A stretch of 64,000 bases of DNA from an uncultured Gemmatimonadota bacterium (GCA_902826615.1 CADEFN010000002.1:124001-188000), one strand, 5' to 3'; positions 51,174 through 62,739 are shown, counted from the stretch's first letter. Numbers and translations are program-made. Notes: a model not told the origin generated them from the letters alone.

Positions 51174-54100
51174 CTACGAAATAATCGCGTTCGGGATGTT
51201 GCGCGACCGGAGCAACTGCCGGAACGCCTCGACATCCGTCTTCATCACCTGGTCAAAGAGGACACGGACTCGTTTGAGTTCTTCCTTGAGGATCGTCTGG
51301 ACCTCGCGATGCTGCGCTGTGGGTGCGTAGTCTGAGCCAGTCACGCTCTGGCCGAGGTAGATGAGCTGCTCCCCGAGCTTGAAGGGGTAGCGGATCTGAT
51401 CCTGCCCCCGTCCCGTGGTGCGCGTCTGGAAGAGCTGATCCTCCACCTGGACGAGCTGTCGGTCGAGCGAGTCGACCCGGGCACGGATGTCAGCCGTCTT
51501 GCCGTCATCACCTAACGAAGCCTTGAGCGCGGCGATCTGCCCGCGGACGACCTCGAGGGCGTTGATCATCGAGACGGTGGTGTCGATATCCGCCGCGAGA
51601 TCCATGGCCACACTGGTCTGCGCGCGGATCTCCTCCTCACTGCCTCCCGACGCGGGATCCTTGCGCACGATCAGCTGGCGACTCTCTTCGCGGCCAGCTG
51701 CGGTGAGTTTGATGGTGTAAGTGCCTGGTGGCACCAGCATGCTGAAGCGCCCGACTCCCGGCGCATTGGCGCCCTGTGTGGCATACCGTGTCTCCGGGTG
51801 GTACGGATTCACGGCGCGGAGTGTGGCCTGTCGTGTGGGTTCGTTGCGCAGATCCCAGTAGAGCCGGTTCACGCCAGCCTTGCCCTGGTGGGCGAGTTTC
51901 CGCACCTCCCGCCCGGCGGCGTCGCTGATGGTGAGACGCACCGAGTCTTTCTGGTCCGCCTTGAGCCAGACGTGGAGCGCGGCCCCGTAGGTGGGGTTGG
52001 TGCCGTTGACCGGGTCGTCAAAGTCGAAGAAGGGTGTTTCGACACCCAGGAATCGGTACGCCGCCCGTGGCTCGAACAGATGCGACTCCTTCGCCACCAC
52101 GTCCGTGCCTAACGTGCGCAGTGGCGTGATGTCGTCGAGGATCCAGAAGCCTCGGCCGTAGGTGGCGATGACGAGATCATTGAAGTGCGGCTGGACCTCG
52201 ATCCAGTAGACCGGAGCATGCGGCAGGTTGTTCTGCAGGGGTTGCCAGTGCTCGCCATCATTGAACGAGACGTACATCCCGTTTTCGGTGCCGGCGTAGA
52301 GCAGCCCGCGACGCACCGGATCCTCGCGCACGACGTGGGCATACGACAGCGGCGAACGGGGAATGCCGTTCACAATCAGCCGCCAGCTCTTGCCGAAGTC
52401 CGTGGTCCTGTAGATGAAAGGATCGCGATTGTTGGACTGATGGGCGTCGATGCTCAAGTACGCCGTGCCTTCGTCATACTTGGACGTCTCGATGTTCGAG
52501 ATCGTGCCCCAATCAGGAGCGCCGGGGAGGTTGGCCGTCAGGTCGGTCCAGGTACGCCCGGCGTCCTGAGTGATGTGGAGCTTGCCGTCGTTTGTTCCGG
52601 CGTAGATGAGCCCCTTGCGGAGACGGGACTCGTTGATGGCGAACACCACGCCCGAGTACTCGACGCCGATGTTGTCGGGGGTGAGCCCACCTGAGCGGAT
52701 CATCCGCGACCGGTCGTTGCGTGAGAGATCGGGCGAGATCACACGCCACGAGCGACCACCATCGGTGGTGGTGTGCACGTGCTGCGACCCCACGTACACC
52801 TGATTGTGAGCGTGTGGCGACAGGTGCACCGGGAAGGTCCAGACAAAGCGGTACTTCACCTCATCGGCGGAGTGCCCAATGGTGCCCTGCGGCCAGACCT
52901 CGACGGCGGTGGAGTATTTGGTGCGGATATCGAAGCGTGAGACAATTCCTCCTACCGATCCGAAGCCTGAAGCACTGGACCAGACGAGATTGCTGTCCAC
53001 CGGGTCCGGTTGTGCCCACCCCGACTCACCACCCCCGACGGACGACCAGAGACCTCTCGGGATGCCGGCGTCCCCGAAATAACTCGCCATCTTGCTGTTG
53101 GACGGCCCCATGGTGGAGGGACCATCCTGCCGGTTGCCGTACACGTTGTAGGGCACCCGGTTGTCGACGGCCACGTGATACATCTGCGCGATGGGCAGGG
53201 CGATGCGGCGCCAGCTCCTGCCGCGATTTTCACTGATGGAGATGCCCCCATCGTGACTCACCCCGATGCGACTCGGCGCGCTTTCGTCGATCCAGATATC
53301 GTGGTGATCACCACCCGGTGTTTCGGCGTTCGGCGGATCGGTAATCGTGCGCCCGCCATCGACGGTCTTTGCCCACGACGCCGTGAGGAAGTAGGCCTCA
53401 TCGGCGTTGTCGGGCATGGCCGCCATGCGGTTGTAGTAGTGCGTGCGGCCCGCCACCTGCTGGTCATAACTCACCACTTGCCAGTTTGTCCCGCCATCAT
53501 CGGAACGCCACAACCGTCCGCGTGACGTCTCCTTGACGTTGGTGGCCGGGAGTCCATCACCCGCTTCGATGAGTGCATAGAGGCGCTGGGAGTTCGCCTT
53601 CGACATCGCCAGACCGATCTTCCCGACCTGTGTGGTGGGCAGCCCGTTGCCGGCGAGACGTTTCCAGGTGGTCCCACCATCGCGTGACATCCAGATGCCA
53701 CTTCCCGCGCCACCCGAGAATCGCCCCCAGGTGTTGAGCTGCACCTGCCACATCCCCGCAAAGAGAATACGCGGATTGTTCGGGTCCATGACCAGGTCCG
53801 ACGCCCCGGTGGAGTCATTCACGAAGAGGACCTTCTCCCAGGTCTTGCCCCCGTCCATGGTGCGGAAGATGCCGCGATCCGGTTGCGGACCATACGCATG
53901 GCCTAACGCGGCCATGTAGACGATGTCTGGATTGGTGGGGTGGATGACAATCCGCGAAATGCGACCCGTCTGGTCGAGCCCCATTTTCGTCCAGCTCTTG
54001 CCGGCGTCCGTTGACCGGAACATGCCCCAGCCCACCGAGATGTTGGACCGAATGAAGGGCTCGCCCGTTCCCACCCAGACCACGTTGGGGTCCGAAGGGG

Positions 54101-54440
54101 CCGTGGCCACCGACCCGATGGAGGACACCGGCTGATCGTCAAAGAGGGGGCGCCAGGTATTACCGCCATCGCTGGTCTTCCACAAACCCCCCGATGCGGC
54201 CCCGGCGTACCAGGTGGCCCGATCACCGGTGACCCCCGCCACGGAGGTTACCCGATTCCCCTCTGGTCCGATGTGCCGCCAGCGCAGCCCGGCGTACCAG
54301 GCGCTGTCAACACCGGAAAGGGAGGATGGCGCCGGGGATGCTGCAGGTCTTCGTTGGGCTTGGGGCTGATCCCAAATCGGGACGAACAGTACGATCGTGG
54401 TCAGGGAGCGCCAGACTGCTGGCCACAGGAGACTTGTCAT
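51174..54440 (-). CDS. Large secreted Asp-box (BNR/VPS10-like) repeat protein
   Basis: The 1088-residue protein has a signal peptide (about 1-29) and two or more beta-propeller blocks. About ten Asp-box repeats of the S/T-x-D-G-G-x-T/S-W type are visible: SDGGNTW, TDAGKSW, MDGGKTW, RDGGTTW, DDGGTNW, ENRGRSW, TDGGRSW, QDAGRTW, TDFGKSW and a weak NDGEHW. The C-terminus has a strand-rich FlgD-like segment and a helical tail. Such sortilin/VPS10-like exoproteins are abundant in these bacteria; they are annotated as glycosyl hydrolases, but catalytic residues of a sialidase are not evident. ATG 54440 is chosen over 54485, which lies behind an inverted repeat. Confidence 0.9.
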   Translation of the reverse strand: MTSLLWPAVWRSLTTIVLFVPIWDQPQAQRRPAASPAPSSLSGVDSAWYAGLRWRHIGPEGNRVTSVAGVTGDRATWYAGAASGGLWKTSDGGNTWRPLFDDQPVSSIGSVATAPSDPNVVWVGTGEPFIRSNISVGWGMFRSTDAGKSWTKMGLDQTGRISRIVIHPTNPDIVYMAALGHAYGPQPDRGIFRTMDGGKTWEKVLFVNDSTGASDLVMDPNNPRILFAGMWQVQLNTWGRFSGGAGSGIWMSRDGGTTWKRLAGNGLPTTQVGKIGLAMSKANSQRLYALIEAGDGLPATNVKETSRGRLWRSDDGGTNWQVVSYDQQVAGRTHYYNRMAAMPDNADEAYFLTASWAKTVDGGRTITDPPNAETPGGDHHDIWIDESAPSRIGVSHDGGISISENRGRSWRRIALPIAQMYHVAVDNRVPYNVYGNRQDGPSTMGPSNSKMASYFGDAGIPRGLWSSVGGGESGWAQPDPVDSNLVWSSASGFGSVGGIVSRFDIRTKYSTAVEVWPQGTIGHSADEVKYRFVWTFPVHLSPHAHNQVYVGSQHVHTTTDGGRSWRVISPDLSRNDRSRMIRSGGLTPDNIGVEYSGVVFAINESRLRKGLIYAGTNDGKLHITQDAGRTWTDLTANLPGAPDWGTISNIETSKYDEGTAYLSIDAHQSNNRDPFIYRTTDFGKSWRLIVNGIPRSPLSYAHVVREDPVRRGLLYAGTENGMYVSFNDGEHWQPLQNNLPHAPVYWIEVQPHFNDLVIATYGRGFWILDDITPLRTLGTDVVAKESHLFEPRAAYRFLGVETPFFDFDDPVNGTNPTYGAALHVWLKADQKDSVRLTISDAAGREVRKLAHQGKAGVNRLYWDLRNEPTRQATLRAVNPYHPETRYATQGANAPGVGRFSMLVPPGTYTIKLTAAGREESRQLIVRKDPASGGSEEEIRAQTSVAMDLAADIDTTVSMINALEVVRGQIAALKASLGDDGKTADIRARVDSLDRQLVQVEDQLFQTRTTGRGQDQIRYPFKLGEQLIYLGQSVTGSDYAPTAQHREVQTILKEELKRVRVLFDQVMKTDVEAFRQLLRSRNIPNAIIS

Positions 54441-54452
54441 GGAGGGGCTGGA

Positions 54453-54483
54453 GAGAGGGCAACTGAGGCGAATTTGCCCTCTC
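54453..54483. repeat. Perfect 10-bp inverted repeat before the Asp-box gene
   Basis: GAGAGGGCAA (54453-54462) and TTGCCCTCTC (54474-54483) with an 11-base loop. The repeat ends 13 bases before the ATG at 54440 (minus strand), so it falls in the untranslated leader or operator area of that gene. There is no T-run, so it is not a terminator. Confidence 0.6.
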
Positions 54484-54635
54484 ATTCCGAGTCGCGGAAG
54501 CCGACCGGACGGCCTTCGGAGCGGAGGTTTTCCTGCTGTTGTTGCCCCTTGCGGACGAAAAATCTCGGCGTGGCGATCGTGACCGGGCGGACCAGCGCCA
54601 CACTATTGCTGAGCTCGTACCGCACTCGGCGGTGT

Positions 54636-55694
54636 TTAGACCCCGGCTCCGCTCTTGTCCTTTCGTCCCGCCCGCGTGGGACGTTTGGCGCCTTCTCGCG
54701 AGCTCGAGGCGCTGCGCGCGGCGACGTCGACCGTGGTGGTCGGCGCGCGACCACCGAATCTCTCCCGAAAGTAGCCCGCCGCGTACGCCGCCTGGGTGAC
54801 GCCCGCGAGGAAGATCATCAGGGGTGCTTTCAGTCCGTGCCCGCCCCGAAGGGGATGCAGGAGGAGCCTTCGATAGAAGCGGAGCGATTCAAGGCGCGGG
54901 AGGTCGGCGCCTCGCCTGGTGCGGGCCGAATGGAGATAGAGCGCGCCGCGGCCATAGGTGTAGTGCTGCCGAACAAAGCCGAAGAAGTTCATCGCATGCG
55001 CATGTCGCACGACCACATCTTCGAAATAGGTCAGCCGCCATCCCTTCTCGAGCCACCGATCGCAGAGGTCGCGGTCTTCTGCGGCCGCCAGCGGAAACGA
55101 TGTGTCAAACCCTCCCATTTCCAGAAAGCGGTCTCGGGGCAGGGCAAGATTATTCGTCGTGAAGAAGCGTCCTTCGCCGGACGGCCGATTGTAGTACTCG
55201 TACAGGAACTCCAGCAGCTCCTGACTTGCCTGCGAGTATGGATCGCCTGCCAGCTCGTTGATCACGTAGCCCCCGATCCCGGTCAGTGGGTCGCGGGTGA
55301 AGTGGGATTCGAGGCGCGACAGCCAGTTGGGCGCAGGACGGCAGTCGTCGTCCACGAAGCAGAGATACGCACCGCGTGCGTGTGTCGCTCCCGTATTGCG
55401 CGCCGTCGCAGGACCAGCATGCTGCTGTGCGATCATCCTGACCTGGAGCCCGGGAGCGCCGGCACTCGCCAGGTTCTCGAGACGCCCGCCGCCGTCATCG
55501 ACGACCACGACCTCAAACTGATCGCGCGGCATGTCCAGATCACGGATCGACTCGATGAGTCTCCGGAGTTGCTCGGGACGGCGGTATGTTGGTACGATGA
55601 CGGAGAAACGGATCACGCCAGCCAGACGCTGCGGGGAGGGACGAACGCGGGGGGTATGGCGAGGGTCAGCCGGGACACTAAGGGCACGAAACAT
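54636..55694 (-). CDS. Glycosyltransferase family 2
   Basis: The catalytic GT-A domain is clear: FSVIVPTYRRPEQLRRLIES at the N-terminus, the nucleotide-binding VVVVDDGGG, ATARNTGATHARGAYLCFVDDDC (with the DxD-like metal site in VDDD), and TTNNLALPRDRFLEMGGFDTSF with ED (AAEDRDLCDRW) near the catalytic base. The C-terminus is a short hydrophobic patch and a basic tail. The start is uncertain among TTG 55751, ATG 55694 and GTG 55616; only about 15 residues precede the domain in the shortest form. It is divergent from the exporter genes, but it belongs to the same locus by function. Confidence 0.85.
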   Translation of the reverse strand: MFRALSVPADPRHTPRVRPSPQRLAGVIRFSVIVPTYRRPEQLRRLIESIRDLDMPRDQFEVVVVDDGGGRLENLASAGAPGLQVRMIAQQHAGPATARNTGATHARGAYLCFVDDDCRPAPNWLSRLESHFTRDPLTGIGGYVINELAGDPYSQASQELLEFLYEYYNRPSGEGRFFTTNNLALPRDRFLEMGGFDTSFPLAAAEDRDLCDRWLEKGWRLTYFEDVVVRHAHAMNFFGFVRQHYTYGRGALYLHSARTRRGADLPRLESLRFYRRLLLHPLRGGHGLKAPLMIFLAGVTQAAYAAGYFRERFGGRAPTTTVDVAARSASSSREGAKRPTRAGRKDKSGAGV

Positions 55695-55809
55695 GCCAAT
55701 TTTCTCATGTGCCCGAGCCTTGCTGACGCAGAGCTGACGCCGGGCGACCAACGATCCTGACAGTCGGCCTGACGGTCGGCGGTGACACCCTCAATCGCCT
55801 CCCCTTCTT

Positions 55810-56580
55810 TTGCTGACTGACATCTGGAAACACCGCGAACTGCTGCGTCGGCTGGTCTGGCGCAACATTGCGGTCCGCTATCAGCGATCAGTCCTCGGTT
55901 TATTCTGGGCCCTGCTGAATCCCTTGCTCGCCATCGCCCTGCTGGTCGGCGTCTTCGGGTTCATCGTCCGCATCCAGGTTGCCTCGTACTGGGCCTTTTT
56001 GCTCAGCGGGTACTTCGTGTGGGTGTACGTGGTGCACACCCTCACCGCATGCGCCACCGTGCTGAGCGAACACGCCTCCATGGTCAAGGGGCTCAAGTTC
56101 CCAACCGAGCTGCTGGTCATTGGCCAGGCGTTGTCCCGCCTGCTCGAGTTCTGTGTCGAACTGCTCCTGGTCGTCGGTGCCCTGGTGCTCTTCCGGCACC
56201 ACGGTCTGCCCTCGTCGCTCATCCTCCTCCCGCTCCTGGTAGCGGCGCAATTGCTGCTCGTGGTTGGGCTCGCTTTGCCAGCGGCCGCGCTCGCGGTCTT
56301 CTTCCGGGACGTGCAACACGGGCTGCCAGTCGCGCTCACCATGGCGGGCTATCTCTCGCCGGTGTACTACCCCATCACCATGGTTCCCGCAGGCGCGCTG
56401 ATCCTGTACCGGCTCAACCCCATCGCGCGCCTGCTCGAGCTCTACCACGTCACGCTGTATGACGGAAAGTGGCCACCGATTGGCGACGTGGCCGTCGTGC
56501 TCATCTTTGCCCTCCTCGTGGCCGGGCTTGGCGGTCTCGCCTTCCGGAAGCTGCGCCCCACTCTTCCTGAGGTGATCTGA
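55810..56580 (+). CDS. ABC-2 type polysaccharide export permease (Wzm-like)
   Basis: The 256-residue protein has about six membrane helices and the ABC-2 permease signature in the sequence YQRSVLGLFWALLNPLLAIALLVGVF and the late YLSPVYYPITMVP. It is the membrane part of an exporter that moves lipid-linked polysaccharide (O-antigen, capsule or teichoic-type glycan). The partner ATPase follows with one base between stop and start. The start is TTG with no clear ribosome-binding site, so the N-terminus is uncertain. Confidence 0.92.
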   Translation: MLTDIWKHRELLRRLVWRNIAVRYQRSVLGLFWALLNPLLAIALLVGVFGFIVRIQVASYWAFLLSGYFVWVYVVHTLTACATVLSEHASMVKGLKFPTELLVIGQALSRLLEFCVELLLVVGALVLFRHHGLPSSLILLPLLVAAQLLLVVGLALPAAALAVFFRDVQHGLPVALTMAGYLSPVYYPITMVPAGALILYRLNPIARLLELYHVTLYDGKWPPIGDVAVVLIFALLVAGLGGLAFRKLRPTLPEVI

Positions 56581-57346: not shown

Positions 57347-58903
57347 GTGCCTGTTCTCGCTGCCGTCGCGCGGCTTCGCGCCCCCATCCGCCTCGCTGAA
57401 CTCGAACTGGCGTCATGCGTGCCGGGGCAACCACTTCCGAGTGGCGACCGTCCAACCGTGCTTCTCGTGAGGTGGCGTGGCCACCCCCTGGGGGTGGCCA
57501 TCCTCGGCAACAATGGGCGCGGCATCGATGGAGAGCCGGCATGGGCAGCGATCGCGCGAGGCTGCAGTCGGCAGCTAGTCCACCAGCTGGCCGTGGAAGG
57601 GGTGCTCGATCCCGACGCGATAGGCCTGACGCTCGGGCACCGTCTTGCCAGAAGCCAGACAACCGCCGCGGCCGCGAGTGTTACCGTCGCGGTTTGCACA
57701 CGCGATCGGCCCGCCTTGCTTCGCAATTGTCTCGACAGTCTGGTGACGTCCACGACGCGCCCGGCAGACATCCTCGTGGTCGACAACGCCCCGGCCACCG
57801 ATGACACACGCCAGCTGGTGAGCACCGCGTATCCCTCCGTTCGCTATGTTCGCGAGGAACGACCCGGGCTCAACCACGCACGCAATCGCGCCGTGGAGGA
57901 GGCACAGACCGAGGTCATCGCCTTCACCGACGACGACTGCGAGGTGGATGCATTCTGGGCAGGGGCCATCGACGCCTGTTTCACGCGGAACCCCGACGTC
58001 ACGGCGGTGACTGGCCTGGTCATTCCGGTTGCCCTCGACACCGAGGCGCAGCGGCTTTTTGAGGTGTACGGCGGGTTCTCGCGCGGAGTGCAGCGCCGCT
58101 GGGTGCTGACGGAGGCCGGGCAACGATCCATCGCGTGGGCACACGCCAACACGGGAAAGCTGGGCACCGGTGCGTGTATGGCGTTCCGCCGCCAGACCCT
58201 GCAAGCGATGGGAGGCTTTGACCCAGCGCTCGACGTCGGCACACCCACGGAGGGTGGCGGCGACCTGGAGGTGTTCTTTCGCACACTGAAAGGGCGTGGG
58301 CTACTGGTCTATGAGCCCGCAGCGCTCGTCAGGCATCGCCACCGCACAACCCGCGCAGAACTCGACCAGCAGCTGCGCGGGTGGGGCCTGGGCATGTCCG
58401 CGCACCTGGCTCGCACCGCCCACCGCTTTCCGGAGGAACGACCGGCGATTGTTGCCCTTCGTGTATGGCTTCTGGCGTCGTGGTTCATGCGCCGACTGGC
58501 AAGCACGGTCGTCCGTGAGCCCTTTCCGCGCGAGCTGATCCTTCACGAACTCGGCGGGTCGTTCGGCGGTGCCGCTCGCTATCGCCAATCACGAGTGGAC
58601 AATCCGTCGTCGCCTACACCGCTCCCCTCCATCCCGATTGGCGCCCGCTCGGCAGCCCACACCGTAACGCTGGGCGCACCACTTCGCGCCATCGAGCGGC
58701 TCGACGGCGTCTCGAGCGTCGACGTCTCGGTCATACAGGGCACGCGCACGCTGGCCACCTTCGGCATCGCGCCCGCACGCGGCTGCATAGGGATGGATCG
58801 CCTGGCCGACGCGGTCGCCGCACATTGCGCCGATGCCCTGCTTGGCATGCCGCGCGCCGAGGCCGAGCGCCAGCTTCGCGCCATGCTCGAGACGCGTCCA
58901 TGA
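57347..58903 (+). CDS. Glycosyltransferase family 2 with extra N- and C-terminal domains
   Basis: The 518-residue protein has three parts: an N-terminal extra domain (about 1-108) with VLLVRWRGHPLGVAIL; a GT2 domain (about 111-400) with VAVCTRDRPALLRNCLDSL, the metal site FTDDDCEVD, GTGACMAFRRQTLQAMGGFD and EGGGDLEVFFR; and a C-terminal extra domain (about 439-518) with VDVSVIQGTRTLATFGIA that resembles the N-terminal one. It is the first of three tandem paralogues. The GTG start lies 3 bases after the ATPase stop. Donor and acceptor are unknown. Confidence 0.9.
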   Translation: MPVLAAVARLRAPIRLAELELASCVPGQPLPSGDRPTVLLVRWRGHPLGVAILGNNGRGIDGEPAWAAIARGCSRQLVHQLAVEGVLDPDAIGLTLGHRLARSQTTAAAASVTVAVCTRDRPALLRNCLDSLVTSTTRPADILVVDNAPATDDTRQLVSTAYPSVRYVREERPGLNHARNRAVEEAQTEVIAFTDDDCEVDAFWAGAIDACFTRNPDVTAVTGLVIPVALDTEAQRLFEVYGGFSRGVQRRWVLTEAGQRSIAWAHANTGKLGTGACMAFRRQTLQAMGGFDPALDVGTPTEGGGDLEVFFRTLKGRGLLVYEPAALVRHRHRTTRAELDQQLRGWGLGMSAHLARTAHRFPEERPAIVALRVWLLASWFMRRLASTVVREPFPRELILHELGGSFGGAARYRQSRVDNPSSPTPLPSIPIGARSAAHTVTLGAPLRAIERLDGVSSVDVSVIQGTRTLATFGIAPARGCIGMDRLADAVAAHCADALLGMPRAEAERQLRAMLETRP

Positions 58904-60147
58904 GGGCGTCTGCGTTGCGCTTCCGGATGGTCGACATCGACATCACCCAAGAGCTTCCAACAGTTTGTCTGAGTGATGAGGAGGGCGGCGTAGGCCTCAT
59001 CGTCCGGCGCGCCGGCGTTCCCGTGGGCTTTGCCATGCTCCCCAGTGCGCCGGGAGCGGAGGTTGACGCGCGCGAGCTGCGTGACGCCGCAGCGCGTGCC
59101 AGTGCGTCGCACATTGTGGAAGCGGCGCTGCGCGACGAACTCCAGCGGGAGCCACCTGCGCCAACCACCCACACCGTATCGGTGGCCGTGTGCACCCGCG
59201 ACCGTCCCGAGGTCCTTGCGCGATGCCTCGCGTCACTCGACGCCGTGCGTGCCCGCTCCGCGCACCGCGACACGCTCCGCGAAATCCTGGTGATCGACAA
59301 CGCACCGTCCGATGATCGGACGCAGAAGGTGGTTGCGTCATTTCCCGGCGTGCGGTATTTCACCGAACCCTGCGCCGGTCTCGACTTCGCCCGGAATCGC
59401 GCATGGCGTGAGGCCCATGGCGACCTGGTGGCCTACATCGACGATGACGCGGTGGTGGATGATGGCTGGCTCGATGGCCTGGCCCACGCGATCGCCGTAC
59501 ACCCTGATGCGGGTGCCTTCACCGGGCTCATCCTCCCGCTCCGCCTCGATACGGAGGCGCAACGGCTCTTTGAGAAGCGCGGGGGCTTCCGGCGCGGGTT
59601 TCGCCCGTGGCGCTATGCGCGGACCAGCCCGGCGCACGGTCCCTTGTACCCGGCAGGCGCGGGCATCTTTGGCGCGGGATGTAACATGGTCGTGCGACGC
59701 GACCTGCTGCAGACACTTGGCGGTTTCGATGAAGCGCTCGACACCGGCGCGCCACTCCCCGGCGGTGGCGACCTCGACATCTTCTATCGGGTCGTCACAC
59801 ACGGGGCGCCCCTGGTCTATGAACCCCGGGCCCTGGTGTTTCACGAACATCGCACGACCCTCCGGGGATTGCGGCGCCAGTACTATACCTGGGGACTGGG
59901 CTTTCTCGCGTTTGTCAGCAAGACATGGCGCACCGAACCGGCGATGCGTCCTCGACTCTCCGGACTGGTGCGCTGGTGGTGCGCCGATATGGCCCGCAGT
60001 ATCGCGGCCTCCCTTCGCGGAACGGGACACACACCGGCGCACTTTCTCCTCGGCGAGCTGTGGGGTGGGGTGGTAGGATTGCTCGGCGAATATCCGCGAT
60101 CGCGTCGCCGTGTCGCAAAGATCAAGCAACAGGCGGGGACGGCATGA
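58900..60147 (+). CDS. Glycosyltransferase family 2 with extra N-terminal domain
   Basis: The 415-residue protein has the extra N-terminal domain (about 1-90; GLIVRRAGVPVGFAML) and a GT2 domain (about 95-380) with VSVAVCTRDRPEVLARCLASL, YIDDDAVVD, GAGCNMVVRRDLLQTLGGFD and GGGDLDIFYR. It is similar to both neighbouring paralogues. ATG 58900 overlaps the previous stop (ATGA). A longer frame from 58825 would run into the previous gene. Confidence 0.9.
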   Translation: MRASALRFRMVDIDITQELPTVCLSDEEGGVGLIVRRAGVPVGFAMLPSAPGAEVDARELRDAAARASASHIVEAALRDELQREPPAPTTHTVSVAVCTRDRPEVLARCLASLDAVRARSAHRDTLREILVIDNAPSDDRTQKVVASFPGVRYFTEPCAGLDFARNRAWREAHGDLVAYIDDDAVVDDGWLDGLAHAIAVHPDAGAFTGLILPLRLDTEAQRLFEKRGGFRRGFRPWRYARTSPAHGPLYPAGAGIFGAGCNMVVRRDLLQTLGGFDEALDTGAPLPGGGDLDIFYRVVTHGAPLVYEPRALVFHEHRTTLRGLRRQYYTWGLGFLAFVSKTWRTEPAMRPRLSGLVRWWCADMARSIAASLRGTGHTPAHFLLGELWGGVVGLLGEYPRSRRRVAKIKQQAGTA

Positions 60148-61448
60148 GCGGCTTTCGTCCCTGGCGTGTGGTGCACTACCACCTCGATCGCGCGGGGGAG
60201 GGCTTGTGCGCCGACGCCGGGACGGCGGGTGCGCTGGTGGTGTTCTGGCATCGCGACACGCCACTTGGGCAGGCGCTGCTGGCCAACGACGAACTGCCAC
60301 TAACGGCAGCGGCCATGTCTGAACGCGCCGCAGCATCTGTCGCGCCGGCGGTGGGCTGGCGCGTGGTGGGACAGGGATTCGAGGCTCCGCTTCCGGTACG
60401 TCGTCCAGCGCCTGCCGGGCTCCCCAACTTCGGCGCTTTAGCCAGGCTCGCGGCGCCTCTGCAGACCCCCGCCCTCGCAGCGGAACACGCAGAGACGGTC
60501 TCCGTCGTGATCTGCACACGACACCGGCCGAGCGCACTCGAACGCTGCCTGCAGTCACTGCAAGCATGTGACGAACAACCGCTCGAGATCATTGTCGTCG
60601 ACAACGGGGTAGACGACCCGGCCACGCGTGCAATCGCTGAGCGGTTTGGTGTGCGCTGGGTTGCCGAGCTCCGTGTGGGGTTGTCATTCGCCCGGAACAC
60701 CGGGATCCTGGCGAGTCGTGGTTCGGTGGTGGCCTTCACCGACGACGATGTGATGGTGCATCACACCTGGATTACACGCCTGCAGGCCGCCTTTGGTGAC
60801 CCGGAGGCGGCCGGGGTGACCGGCCTCGTGCTCCCCGCCTCACTGACGACCGAGGCCGAATGGGCCTTTGAACACACGCTGGGTGGCTTTGGGCAAGGCT
60901 TCCGGTCGCTGCGGTTCGGGCCGGAGTTTTTCTCAACCCTGCGCCCGTGGGGCGTGCCGGTCTGGCGCATTGGCGCAGGCGCTTGCATGGCGGTGCGTCG
61001 GGAGGTGCTGTCGCGCGTTGGAGGGTTTGACGAACGACTCGGCGCCGGGACGTCGGGATGCAGCGAGGACTCGGAGCTCTGGTATCGCATGCTGGCCGCA
61101 GGGCTTACCTGCCTCTACGATCCCGCGGTCGTGGTGCACCATCATCATCGCGGCAGCGTGCACGATCTGGAGCGGCAGATGGAGGCCTACGCCCGTGGCC
61201 ATGTCGCCGCGCTCTGTGTGCAGCTGGAGCGGCATGGCGACTGGGGCAATCTCTATCGCCTGCTGGTCGCGATGCCGGCTTACTACCTTCGGCTGTTTGT
61301 GCGTGACGCACTCACAGCGTGGCGTACACGCACCCCAGGGTTGCTGGCCCAGGTGCGCGGATATCTCATGGGAGCGGTGTACTACCTCGAGCACCGCCAC
61401 GACGGCGGCGCCCCGGCGATACCTGCGCTGCGCCCGGAGCAGCCATGA
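60144..61448 (+). CDS. Glycosyltransferase family 2 with extra N-terminal domain
   Basis: The 434-residue protein is the third of the tandem set. The extra N-terminal domain (about 1-85; ALVVFWHRDTPLGQALL) is followed by a proline-rich linker and a GT2 domain (about 118-400) with VVICTRHRPSALERCLQSL, FTDDDVMVH, GAGACMAVRREVLSRVGGFD and SEDSELWYR. The C-terminus has a hydrophobic helix. ATG 60144 overlaps the previous stop (ATGA). Confidence 0.9.
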   Translation: MSGFRPWRVVHYHLDRAGEGLCADAGTAGALVVFWHRDTPLGQALLANDELPLTAAAMSERAAASVAPAVGWRVVGQGFEAPLPVRRPAPAGLPNFGALARLAAPLQTPALAAEHAETVSVVICTRHRPSALERCLQSLQACDEQPLEIIVVDNGVDDPATRAIAERFGVRWVAELRVGLSFARNTGILASRGSVVAFTDDDVMVHHTWITRLQAAFGDPEAAGVTGLVLPASLTTEAEWAFEHTLGGFGQGFRSLRFGPEFFSTLRPWGVPVWRIGAGACMAVRREVLSRVGGFDERLGAGTSGCSEDSELWYRMLAAGLTCLYDPAVVVHHHHRGSVHDLERQMEAYARGHVAALCVQLERHGDWGNLYRLLVAMPAYYLRLFVRDALTAWRTRTPGLLAQVRGYLMGAVYYLEHRHDGGAPAIPALRPEQP

Positions 61449-61461
61449 CAGGGCGTCGTTC

Positions 61462-62739
61462 ATGGTCAAGGGCTCGACGGGCGCACACCTCGTTATCAGA
61501 GACGGACACGTGCGGCCCACGGTAGCCCTGCTCCCCTGGGGTGATGTCTTCGAAGACTACCTCGACGACATCGGCCTCGACCTCGAGGCCTTCGCCACCA
61601 GAATGAGTGGTGGCTGGATGTTCGGGTATGTCGAAGCGCTGGCCACCGCAGGAATCGACGTGATGATCGTGGTCTTCTCGCGCACCGTCACACGTCGCAC
61701 CGAGTGGCACCCCCCAGTGAGCCCATGCCGCATCATCGCGCTGCCGTCCCCCAGCGCAGTCCAGTGGTTTCGGCGCGCCCCACAGCCCCTTGCACGACTG
61801 GCGCCATGGTGTGCCACCAATCGGCGTGACCTCGCAGAGGTCCTCGCCCAGTATCAATGCCGAGCCATCCTCGTGCAGGAATATGAAGACGTCAGATTCG
61901 ATGTGGTGACGCGGATGGCCAACGGGCTTCCCGTGTTTGGGGTATTCCAGGGTGGGAGCGTCTCTCCTGACGGGCTGGCAAGACGTGTGCGCCGTGGGAG
62001 CATGCGAAAGAGTGCGGGACTCGTGATCGCGAGTGCCGCGGAACGGTCGCGGGTTGCGGCGCAGTACGGCGCGAACCTTCCACCCCTTGTATCCATCGGC
62101 AATCCGGTTGACACACGGCTCTGGCATCCCGACGCGCGCGACCTGACGCGAGAACACCTAGCCGTCGCCGGCAGCGAACGCCTTGTCATCTGGCACGGAC
62201 GTGTCGACGTGCAGATCAAGGGACTGGACCTGTTACTGAAGGCGTGGACGCATGTGCGAGCCAGCGAGCCGGGGAGAGGCGCGCGGCTGCTCCTGATCGG
62301 GACGGGCGTCGACGCCGAACGATTCGGGAAGATGGTGGCAGCCGAAGGTGTAAGCGGCGTGACCTGGATCAACGAATACGTCCTCGATCGGATGCGCATG
62401 CGTCAGCTGCTCTCGGCCGGAGACCTCCATGTGTTGTCGTCGCGTCGAGAGGGTTTTCCCGTCGCGCCCATGGAGGCCATGGCCTGTGGGCTGCCGGTGG
62501 TTGCAACAGACGTCTCAGGCGTTCGAGACCTGCTCGGCGACGATAACAGCTGCGGACGTGTGGTGGCCGTTAACGACCCCACGGCGCTTGGGGAGGCCAT
62601 GGCGAACCTGCTGGCCGATCCAAAGCGGCTTGTGACCATGGGCTCGGCGGCGCGCGAACGCGTCACACGCCTGTACTCATTGGAGGCCGTGGGACGACAG
62701 CTCGCAGCGCTCCCGGGAATGCCCGGTGCACGTACCTAA
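61462..62739 (+). CDS. Glycosyltransferase family 4
   Basis: The 425-residue protein has a GT-B fold of the GT4 type. The C-terminal half shows ERLVIWHGRVDVQIKGLDLLLKAW, ARLLLIGTG, the C-terminal LHVLSSRREGFPVAPMEAMACGLPVVATDVSG (given here as the EGFPVAPMEAMACG core), and the late SLEAVGRQLAAL. It would transfer a sugar from a nucleotide donor with retention of configuration. ATG 61462 is the first start in frame after the previous gene. The stop overlaps the convergent gene's stop. Confidence 0.92.
   Translation: MVKGSTGAHLVIRDGHVRPTVALLPWGDVFEDYLDDIGLDLEAFATRMSGGWMFGYVEALATAGIDVMIVVFSRTVTRRTEWHPPVSPCRIIALPSPSAVQWFRRAPQPLARLAPWCATNRRDLAEVLAQYQCRAILVQEYEDVRFDVVTRMANGLPVFGVFQGGSVSPDGLARRVRRGSMRKSAGLVIASAAERSRVAAQYGANLPPLVSIGNPVDTRLWHPDARDLTREHLAVAGSERLVIWHGRVDVQIKGLDLLLKAWTHVRASEPGRGARLLLIGTGVDAERFGKMVAAEGVSGVTWINEYVLDRMRMRQLLSAGDLHVLSSRREGFPVAPMEAMACGLPVVATDVSGVRDLLGDDNSCGRVVAVNDPTALGEAMANLLADPKRLVTMGSAARERVTRLYSLEAVGRQLAALPGMPGART

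Follow-up and report, generated by a model that had tools for sequence, protein, structure and literature searches.

A 64,000-nucleotide stretch of DNA from an uncultured Gemmatimonadota bacterium (GCA_902826615.1 CADEFN010000002.1:124001-188000; the whole stretch is termed the window) carries a cell-surface glycan operon in which genes for a Wzm-like permease and a Wzt-like ATPase are followed by three adjacent genes for family 2 glycosyltransferases (GT2), designated W1, W2 and W3, and then by a GT4-type glycosyltransferase gene (Table 1). W1, W2 and W3 are probably translationally coupled, since the start codons of W2 (ATG 58900, with ATG 58927 as a possible alternative) and W3 (ATG 60144) sit inside the stop of the preceding gene, overlapping it as ATGA. 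The first-pass annotation of this DNA had described 85-110 residues before the GT2 fold of each protein, resembling one another and the C-terminal end of W1, and hence four copies of a domain that it could not name; the length needs a small correction for W3, which has about 119 residues before GT2 rather than 110 at most. In Pfam the GT2 range was W1 residues 113-208 or further, W2 85-261 and W3 121-293, with PF00535 scores of 66.1, 64.9 and 79.8 bits, respectively, all above the gathering cut-off of 23.3, and no Pfam family was matched on the N-terminal 83-120 residues of the three proteins. The Pfam and NCBIfam libraries named only their GT2 part.

Profile comparisons identify the N-terminus of each GT2 protein and the C-terminus of W1 as copies of one uncatalogued domain of approximately 70 residues, here termed D. 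Profile models built separately from N-terminal and C-terminal segments matched each other with hhalign probabilities of 94.9-96.6 (E 1e-8 to 6e-10), against at most 0.3 for three column-shuffled controls. Similarly, the D copies of fused D-GT2-D-GT2 proteins, divided into those before the first (D1) and second (D2) GT2 module, matched at 98.9% with E 2.4e-17, against no more than 10.9% for shuffled controls. Homologues of W1 were collected from relatives and their alignment used to query genome contigs, giving 80 named loci; a single-protein query matched nothing. An iterated D hidden Markov model (HMM), seeded with the four window copies, detected all four with E below 1e-3, independent support being the hhalign comparison of N- and C-terminal sets, and on reversed or shuffled frames its best E was 0.77 in the first iteration and 1.9 in the second. 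HMMs built from a single set matched the other set weakly (the N-terminal model gave E 0.11 on the W1 C-terminal copy, the level of decoys), and the link between N- and C-terminal copies therefore needs profile-profile comparison or pooled models. Both of these, the former at 95-97%, bear out the earlier claim of four copies of one domain in three proteins. Iterated HMMs gathered 195 D copies in 130 open frames. The D consensus reads DIELSQPL...VR.HG.PLG; common to both subtypes is, roughly, [DE]-[IV]-[ED]-[LV]-[ST]-Q-P-[LF], followed first by a hairpin whose turn is of the G-x-P-[LI]-G type and next by a helix.

AlphaFold modelling of full-length W1 gave a predicted local distance difference test score (pLDDT) of 90.3 and a predicted template modelling score (pTM) of 0.92. 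In this model the N-terminal copy has strands at residues 14-20, 37-43 and 46-53 and a helix at 62-87, and the C-terminal copy has strands at 434-441, 455-464 and 467-474 and a helix at 483-499. Modelled alone (pLDDT 84), the N-terminal copy has strands at 5-10, 27-33 and 36-43 and a helix at 52-77. The predictions, which cover the W1 copies, thus give both the same beta-beta-beta-alpha order, in line with the shared fold anticipated by the first-pass annotation. A scan of 114 D copies against Pfam and NCBIfam produced stray weak matches and no family, a D profile produced chance matches to PDB sequences, and D was not described in the literature searched; the domain is as nameless as first reported, and the libraries searched place none of the segments in a known family. 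Fold searches with isolated D against the PDB and viral models gave no E below 0.001 (best Foldseek E 0.21, best Z 2.7), which is no demonstration of a new fold. Matches to PvuII-like and similar folds (Z up to 2.7) were weak and were not credited.

The W1 model shows a GT-A fold over residues ~105-415, with Z up to 21 against GT-A enzymes, and the acidic DxD-type motif is DDD at residues 195-197, invariant in a 10-protein alignment including W2 and W3. The chondroitin polymerase K4CP and the Pasteurella heparosan synthase PmHS2 have GT-A domains matching the W1 GT2 with Z of 20.5 and 18.9, respectively. Both are dual GT-A polymerases, and the D-GT2-D-GT2 relatives are likewise dual GT2 chains, whereas W1 has one GT2, its D copies are unmatched in the two polymerases and the window proteins are not known to have polymerase activity. 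Two glycosyltransferase domains per chain, as in K4CP or WbdA, were not seen in W1-W3, which have one GT2 each, but occur in relatives elsewhere. Among NCBIfam models, the GT2 part matched the mycofactocin glycosyltransferase MftF (TIGR03965) best, with 108.6, 121.3 and 142.9 bits for W1, W2 and W3, and the GT2 profiles align at 99.9%; identity of W1-W3 as MftF was rejected, as these scores lie below the equivalog cut-off of 280 bits. The N-terminal region of MftF does not align with D, and kinship between the two was rejected (hhalign 0.1-0.2%). The exopolysaccharide glycosyltransferases HpsE, HpsN and EpsD also share the GT2 core with W1-W3, but scores were far below cut-offs and matches began at GT2, so that D lies outside those models.

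In a tree of 162 GT2 domains, W1 was placed in a first-module clade (47 first domains of fused proteins and 7 from D-GT2-D proteins; Shimodaira-Hasegawa-like approximate likelihood ratio test (SH-aLRT) 95), W3 in a second-module clade containing all 47 second domains of fused proteins (SH-aLRT 98). W2 fell in a separate clade of 17, mostly single genes (SH-aLRT 100), its relatives being single genes of the first type. HMMs trained on D before the first versus the second module were correct for 95 of 95 copies in cross-validation, and assigned the window copies as D1 and D2 in W1, D1 in W2 and D2 in W3. Judged by tree placement and subtype calls, W1 resembles a D-GT2-D-GT2 protein that lacks the second GT2, and W2 and W3 look like the two modules of such a protein as separate genes. 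W1 groups in one clade (support 98) with three further D-GT2-D proteins from its family, one of the four, at locus L041, being called GT2-D by the model with its N-terminal D below threshold and visible in the alignment; joining the protein of locus L045 to this clade was not rejected (approximately unbiased test, p-AU 0.80). Opposite subtypes were found in 24 of the 34 loci with two separate D-GT2 genes, and in 20 of 30 once near-copies were removed (13.2 for random pairing, p 0.004), which by these subtype calls shows that modules of the two types accompany each other.

The 130 frames comprised 63 D-GT2, 48 D-GT2-D-GT2, 7 GT2-D-D, 6 D-GT2-D and 3 GT2-D proteins with 3 others seen once each. 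The D-GT2-D frames of L051 and L054 reach a contig end and are probably truncated fused proteins. The GT2-D-D part is followed by a NodS-like methyltransferase and a polysaccharide deacetylase in L043 and L107, and by the deacetylase alone in L205:1569-4511. Three cyanobacterial proteins have a sulfotransferase-D-D-polysaccharide deacetylase arrangement without GT2 (L206:2300-5053(-), L208:9583-12069(+) and L209:9938-12442(+)). As D is carried by both kinds of protein, it is a module of glycan enzymes in general rather than part of the GT2 fold.

The complete GT2-D-D-NodS-like methyltransferase-NodB-like deacetylase proteins, of ~1150-1230 residues, were seen at L107:8704-12309, L108, L109, L112, L113 and L043:4725-8405(-); most adjoin split D-GT2 pairs and a ~600-aa ATP-binding cassette (ABC) exporter, and that of L043 adjoins a fused one. 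The C-terminal part of the sulfotransferase proteins matches deacetylase proteins that elsewhere begin with GT2. At L062:4326-6664 (Brocadia), D-GT2-D-D is followed by D-D in another frame, a possible frameshift or expansion of D.

Occurrence of the domain before GT2 genes elsewhere, anticipated at first pass, was seen in many phyla, with D loci spanning at least 13. Evenly drawn samples, each including its centre genome and with single matches at E above 1e-4 taken as doubtful, contained D in 15/194 Cyanobacteriota, 16/201 Chloroflexota (four at E above 1e-4), 9/200 Gemmatimonadota (four at E above 1e-4), 2/195 Verrucomicrobiota, 2/198 Bacteroidota (one doubtful) and 1/299 Pseudomonadota (the centre genome itself). 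D is spread widely but in patches, a pattern that surface-glycan loci moving between lineages would give. A Wzt-similar ATPase was present in 62 of 81 context loci, counting ~600-aa ABC exporters such as that of L107, and a Wzm-like permease in 37, figures that are no measure of frequency as the loci were picked by similarity to the query.

In the window, permease (ABC2_membrane) and ATPase (ABC_tran) genes lie directly upstream of W1. The glycan-binding domain Wzt_C, which occurs in some systems only, had no Pfam match on the window's Wzt; the 471-aa Wzt of L050 does carry it. Short Wzt proteins were also seen in L041, L070 and L088, adjoining D-GT2-D or split D-GT2 genes. A GT2 gene without D lies immediately upstream of Wzm (54636-55751 (-)), and L041 and L042 have a similar gene at the corresponding position. 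Further away, 51174-54485 (-) encodes a protein of 1103 residues that looks secreted and has repeated SxDGGxTW motifs, presumably like those of sortilin/BNR beta-propeller proteins.

Table 1. Features of the operon, in window coordinates
Feature	Position	Strand	Evidence
ABC-2 transporter permease, Wzm-like, at the start of the operon	55810..56580	+	Pfam ABC2_membrane 1.4e-12
Wzt-like ABC ATPase, 253 aa	56582..57343	+	Pfam ABC_tran 1.3e-21
W1, D1-GT2-D2 glycosyltransferase, 518 aa, GTG start	57347..58903	+	Pfam; D model; AlphaFold
W1 N-terminal D, first-module subtype D1, beta-beta-beta-alpha	57383..57610	+	D model; AlphaFold; D1 minus D2 score +11.8
W1 GT2 (GT-A) catalytic domain, DDD motif	57680..58435	+	PF00535 4.8e-18; invariant D195-D197; GT-A Z 21
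W1 C-terminal D, second-module subtype D2	58646..58855	+	D model; AlphaFold; D1 minus D2 score -16.9
W2, D-GT2 glycosyltransferase, ATGA overlap with W1	58900..60147	+	Pfam; D model
W2 N-terminal D, D1 subtype	58924..59136	+	D model; D1 minus D2 score +31.7
W3, D-GT2 glycosyltransferase, ATGA overlap with W2	60144..61448	+	Pfam; D model
W3 N-terminal D, D2 subtype	60162..60374	+	D model; D1 minus D2 score -10.7
GT4-type glycosyltransferase, next after W3	61462..62739	+	Pfam Glyco_trans_1_4 9.6e-31; ATG 61462 read from sequence

Comparable modularity is known from ABC transporter-dependent O-polysaccharide synthesis. Klebsiella O4, O7 and O12 and E. coli O9 WbdA/WbdD have single- and multi-module glycosyltransferases, and modules joined in one organism are separate in another, beside Wzm/Wzt-type export genes, as at D loci (PMC11231755). 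The polymerase modules of Klebsiella O4 and O7 occur either joined in one protein or apart, and two-hybrid tests show them to interact; modules of these Klebsiella and E. coli systems form complexes in the cases studied (PMC11231755). The sections of that paper drawn on here describe no D domain in them. Those systems use a coiled-coil ruler protein with a chain terminator; the likeness here concerns modules and export genes. The D pattern would work like the Klebsiella O4/O7 module arrangement.

We infer, as the best-supported guess and with somewhat less than even confidence, that D1 and D2 are a matched pair that docks or orients collaborating GT2 enzymes beside the Wzm/Wzt exporter. With D1 before the first GT2 half and D2 before the second in fused D1-GT2-D2-GT2 proteins, the most frequent arrangement with several copies, the pair would fix two GT2 catalytic domains side by side, D pairing occurring within the chain in fused proteins and between chains for W2 and W3, whilst W1 would keep the D1-D2 pair inside one chain though the second enzyme is gone. 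Sugars would be added successively, in order, by the D-paired GT2s, and the membrane-associated assembly held by D pairs would feed the exporter. Homology, predicted secondary structure, subtypes, architectures and gene context are what the analysis shows; contact between D copies, the forming of complexes and a coupling to export are inferred. The pLDDT and pTM of the W1 model suggest that both D copies are firmly placed relative to the GT2 core. The first-pass annotation had offered two guesses, binding of the lipid-linked acceptor and linkage of the enzymes in an ordered complex; the latter fits better because the subtypes are module-specific, W1 retains a second-type copy without a second enzyme and D lies between unrelated catalytic domains. 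A broader version, in which D is a heterotypic docking domain whose D1 and D2 subtypes would recognize each other and assemble GT2, sulfotransferase, methyltransferase and deacetylase in ordered complexes across many phyla, with W1 as a hub that kept its docking pair after losing the second enzyme, is doubtful.

Several observations weigh against docking by a D1-D2 pair. Subtype pairing follows from the shared descent of the modules and alone is no proof of contact between D copies. pTM is merely a model statistic, and a mutual-information test of D1-D2 contact had no power (50 effective sequences; the hairpin control was silent). Opposite subtypes were missing from 10 of the 34 two-gene loci, the D-D of the deacetylase proteins shows no clear D1/D2 split, and L062 carries two D2-type copies in succession.

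D might instead be a small module binding the glycan or lipid-linked acceptor, keeping the lengthening glycan close to the active site and recurring on any enzyme that acts on that glycan. Such a role would account for D on GT2, sulfotransferase, methyltransferase and deacetylase proteins, which have nothing in common but a glycan substrate, and tandem D-D may be likened to tandem binding modules; however, D matches no carbohydrate-binding family in Pfam and has no convincing fold match in the PDB, and its subtypes track module order rather than enzyme chemistry. We consider this unlikely. Rather unlikely, too, is that D is a structural cap that stabilizes the GT2 fold and has no docking role, the D2 of W1 packing against C-terminal helices of the GT2 in the same protein. 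This is consistent with the W1 model, in which D2 has pLDDT 94-98 (pTM 0.92), and with a GT2-to-D2 spacing of about 73-88 residues alike in fused and D-GT2-D proteins, but many GT2 proteins, some in the window's own genome, have no D, and D sits on sulfotransferase proteins that have no GT2.

It is very unlikely that the C-terminal D of W1 has no function and is left over from a second module since lost. Its second-module subtype on a protein whose GT2 falls in the first-module clade does indicate a missing second GT2, but four related D-GT2-D proteins, from two genera of the family (that of the window and one other), retain this copy, as perhaps does the protein of L045. D2 identity in the D-GT2-D clade (25-36%) is about equal to that of D1 (19-46%), which argues against a dead remnant. 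Chance resemblance between unrelated Ala-rich beta-helix stretches, to which pairwise identities to the first copy of merely 14-24% (19-sequence set) might point, was rejected as extremely improbable, being contradicted by the hhalign statistics with shuffled controls, the D model with its decoys and the 195 family members.

How the glycosyltransferase modules of ABC transporter-dependent glycan pathways stay in order is an open question, for which D gives a testable handle. The presence of D in fused and split enzymes, paired by subtype, would allow many proteins now described as glycosyltransferase family 2 to be annotated by module type, and D merits a family entry of its own.

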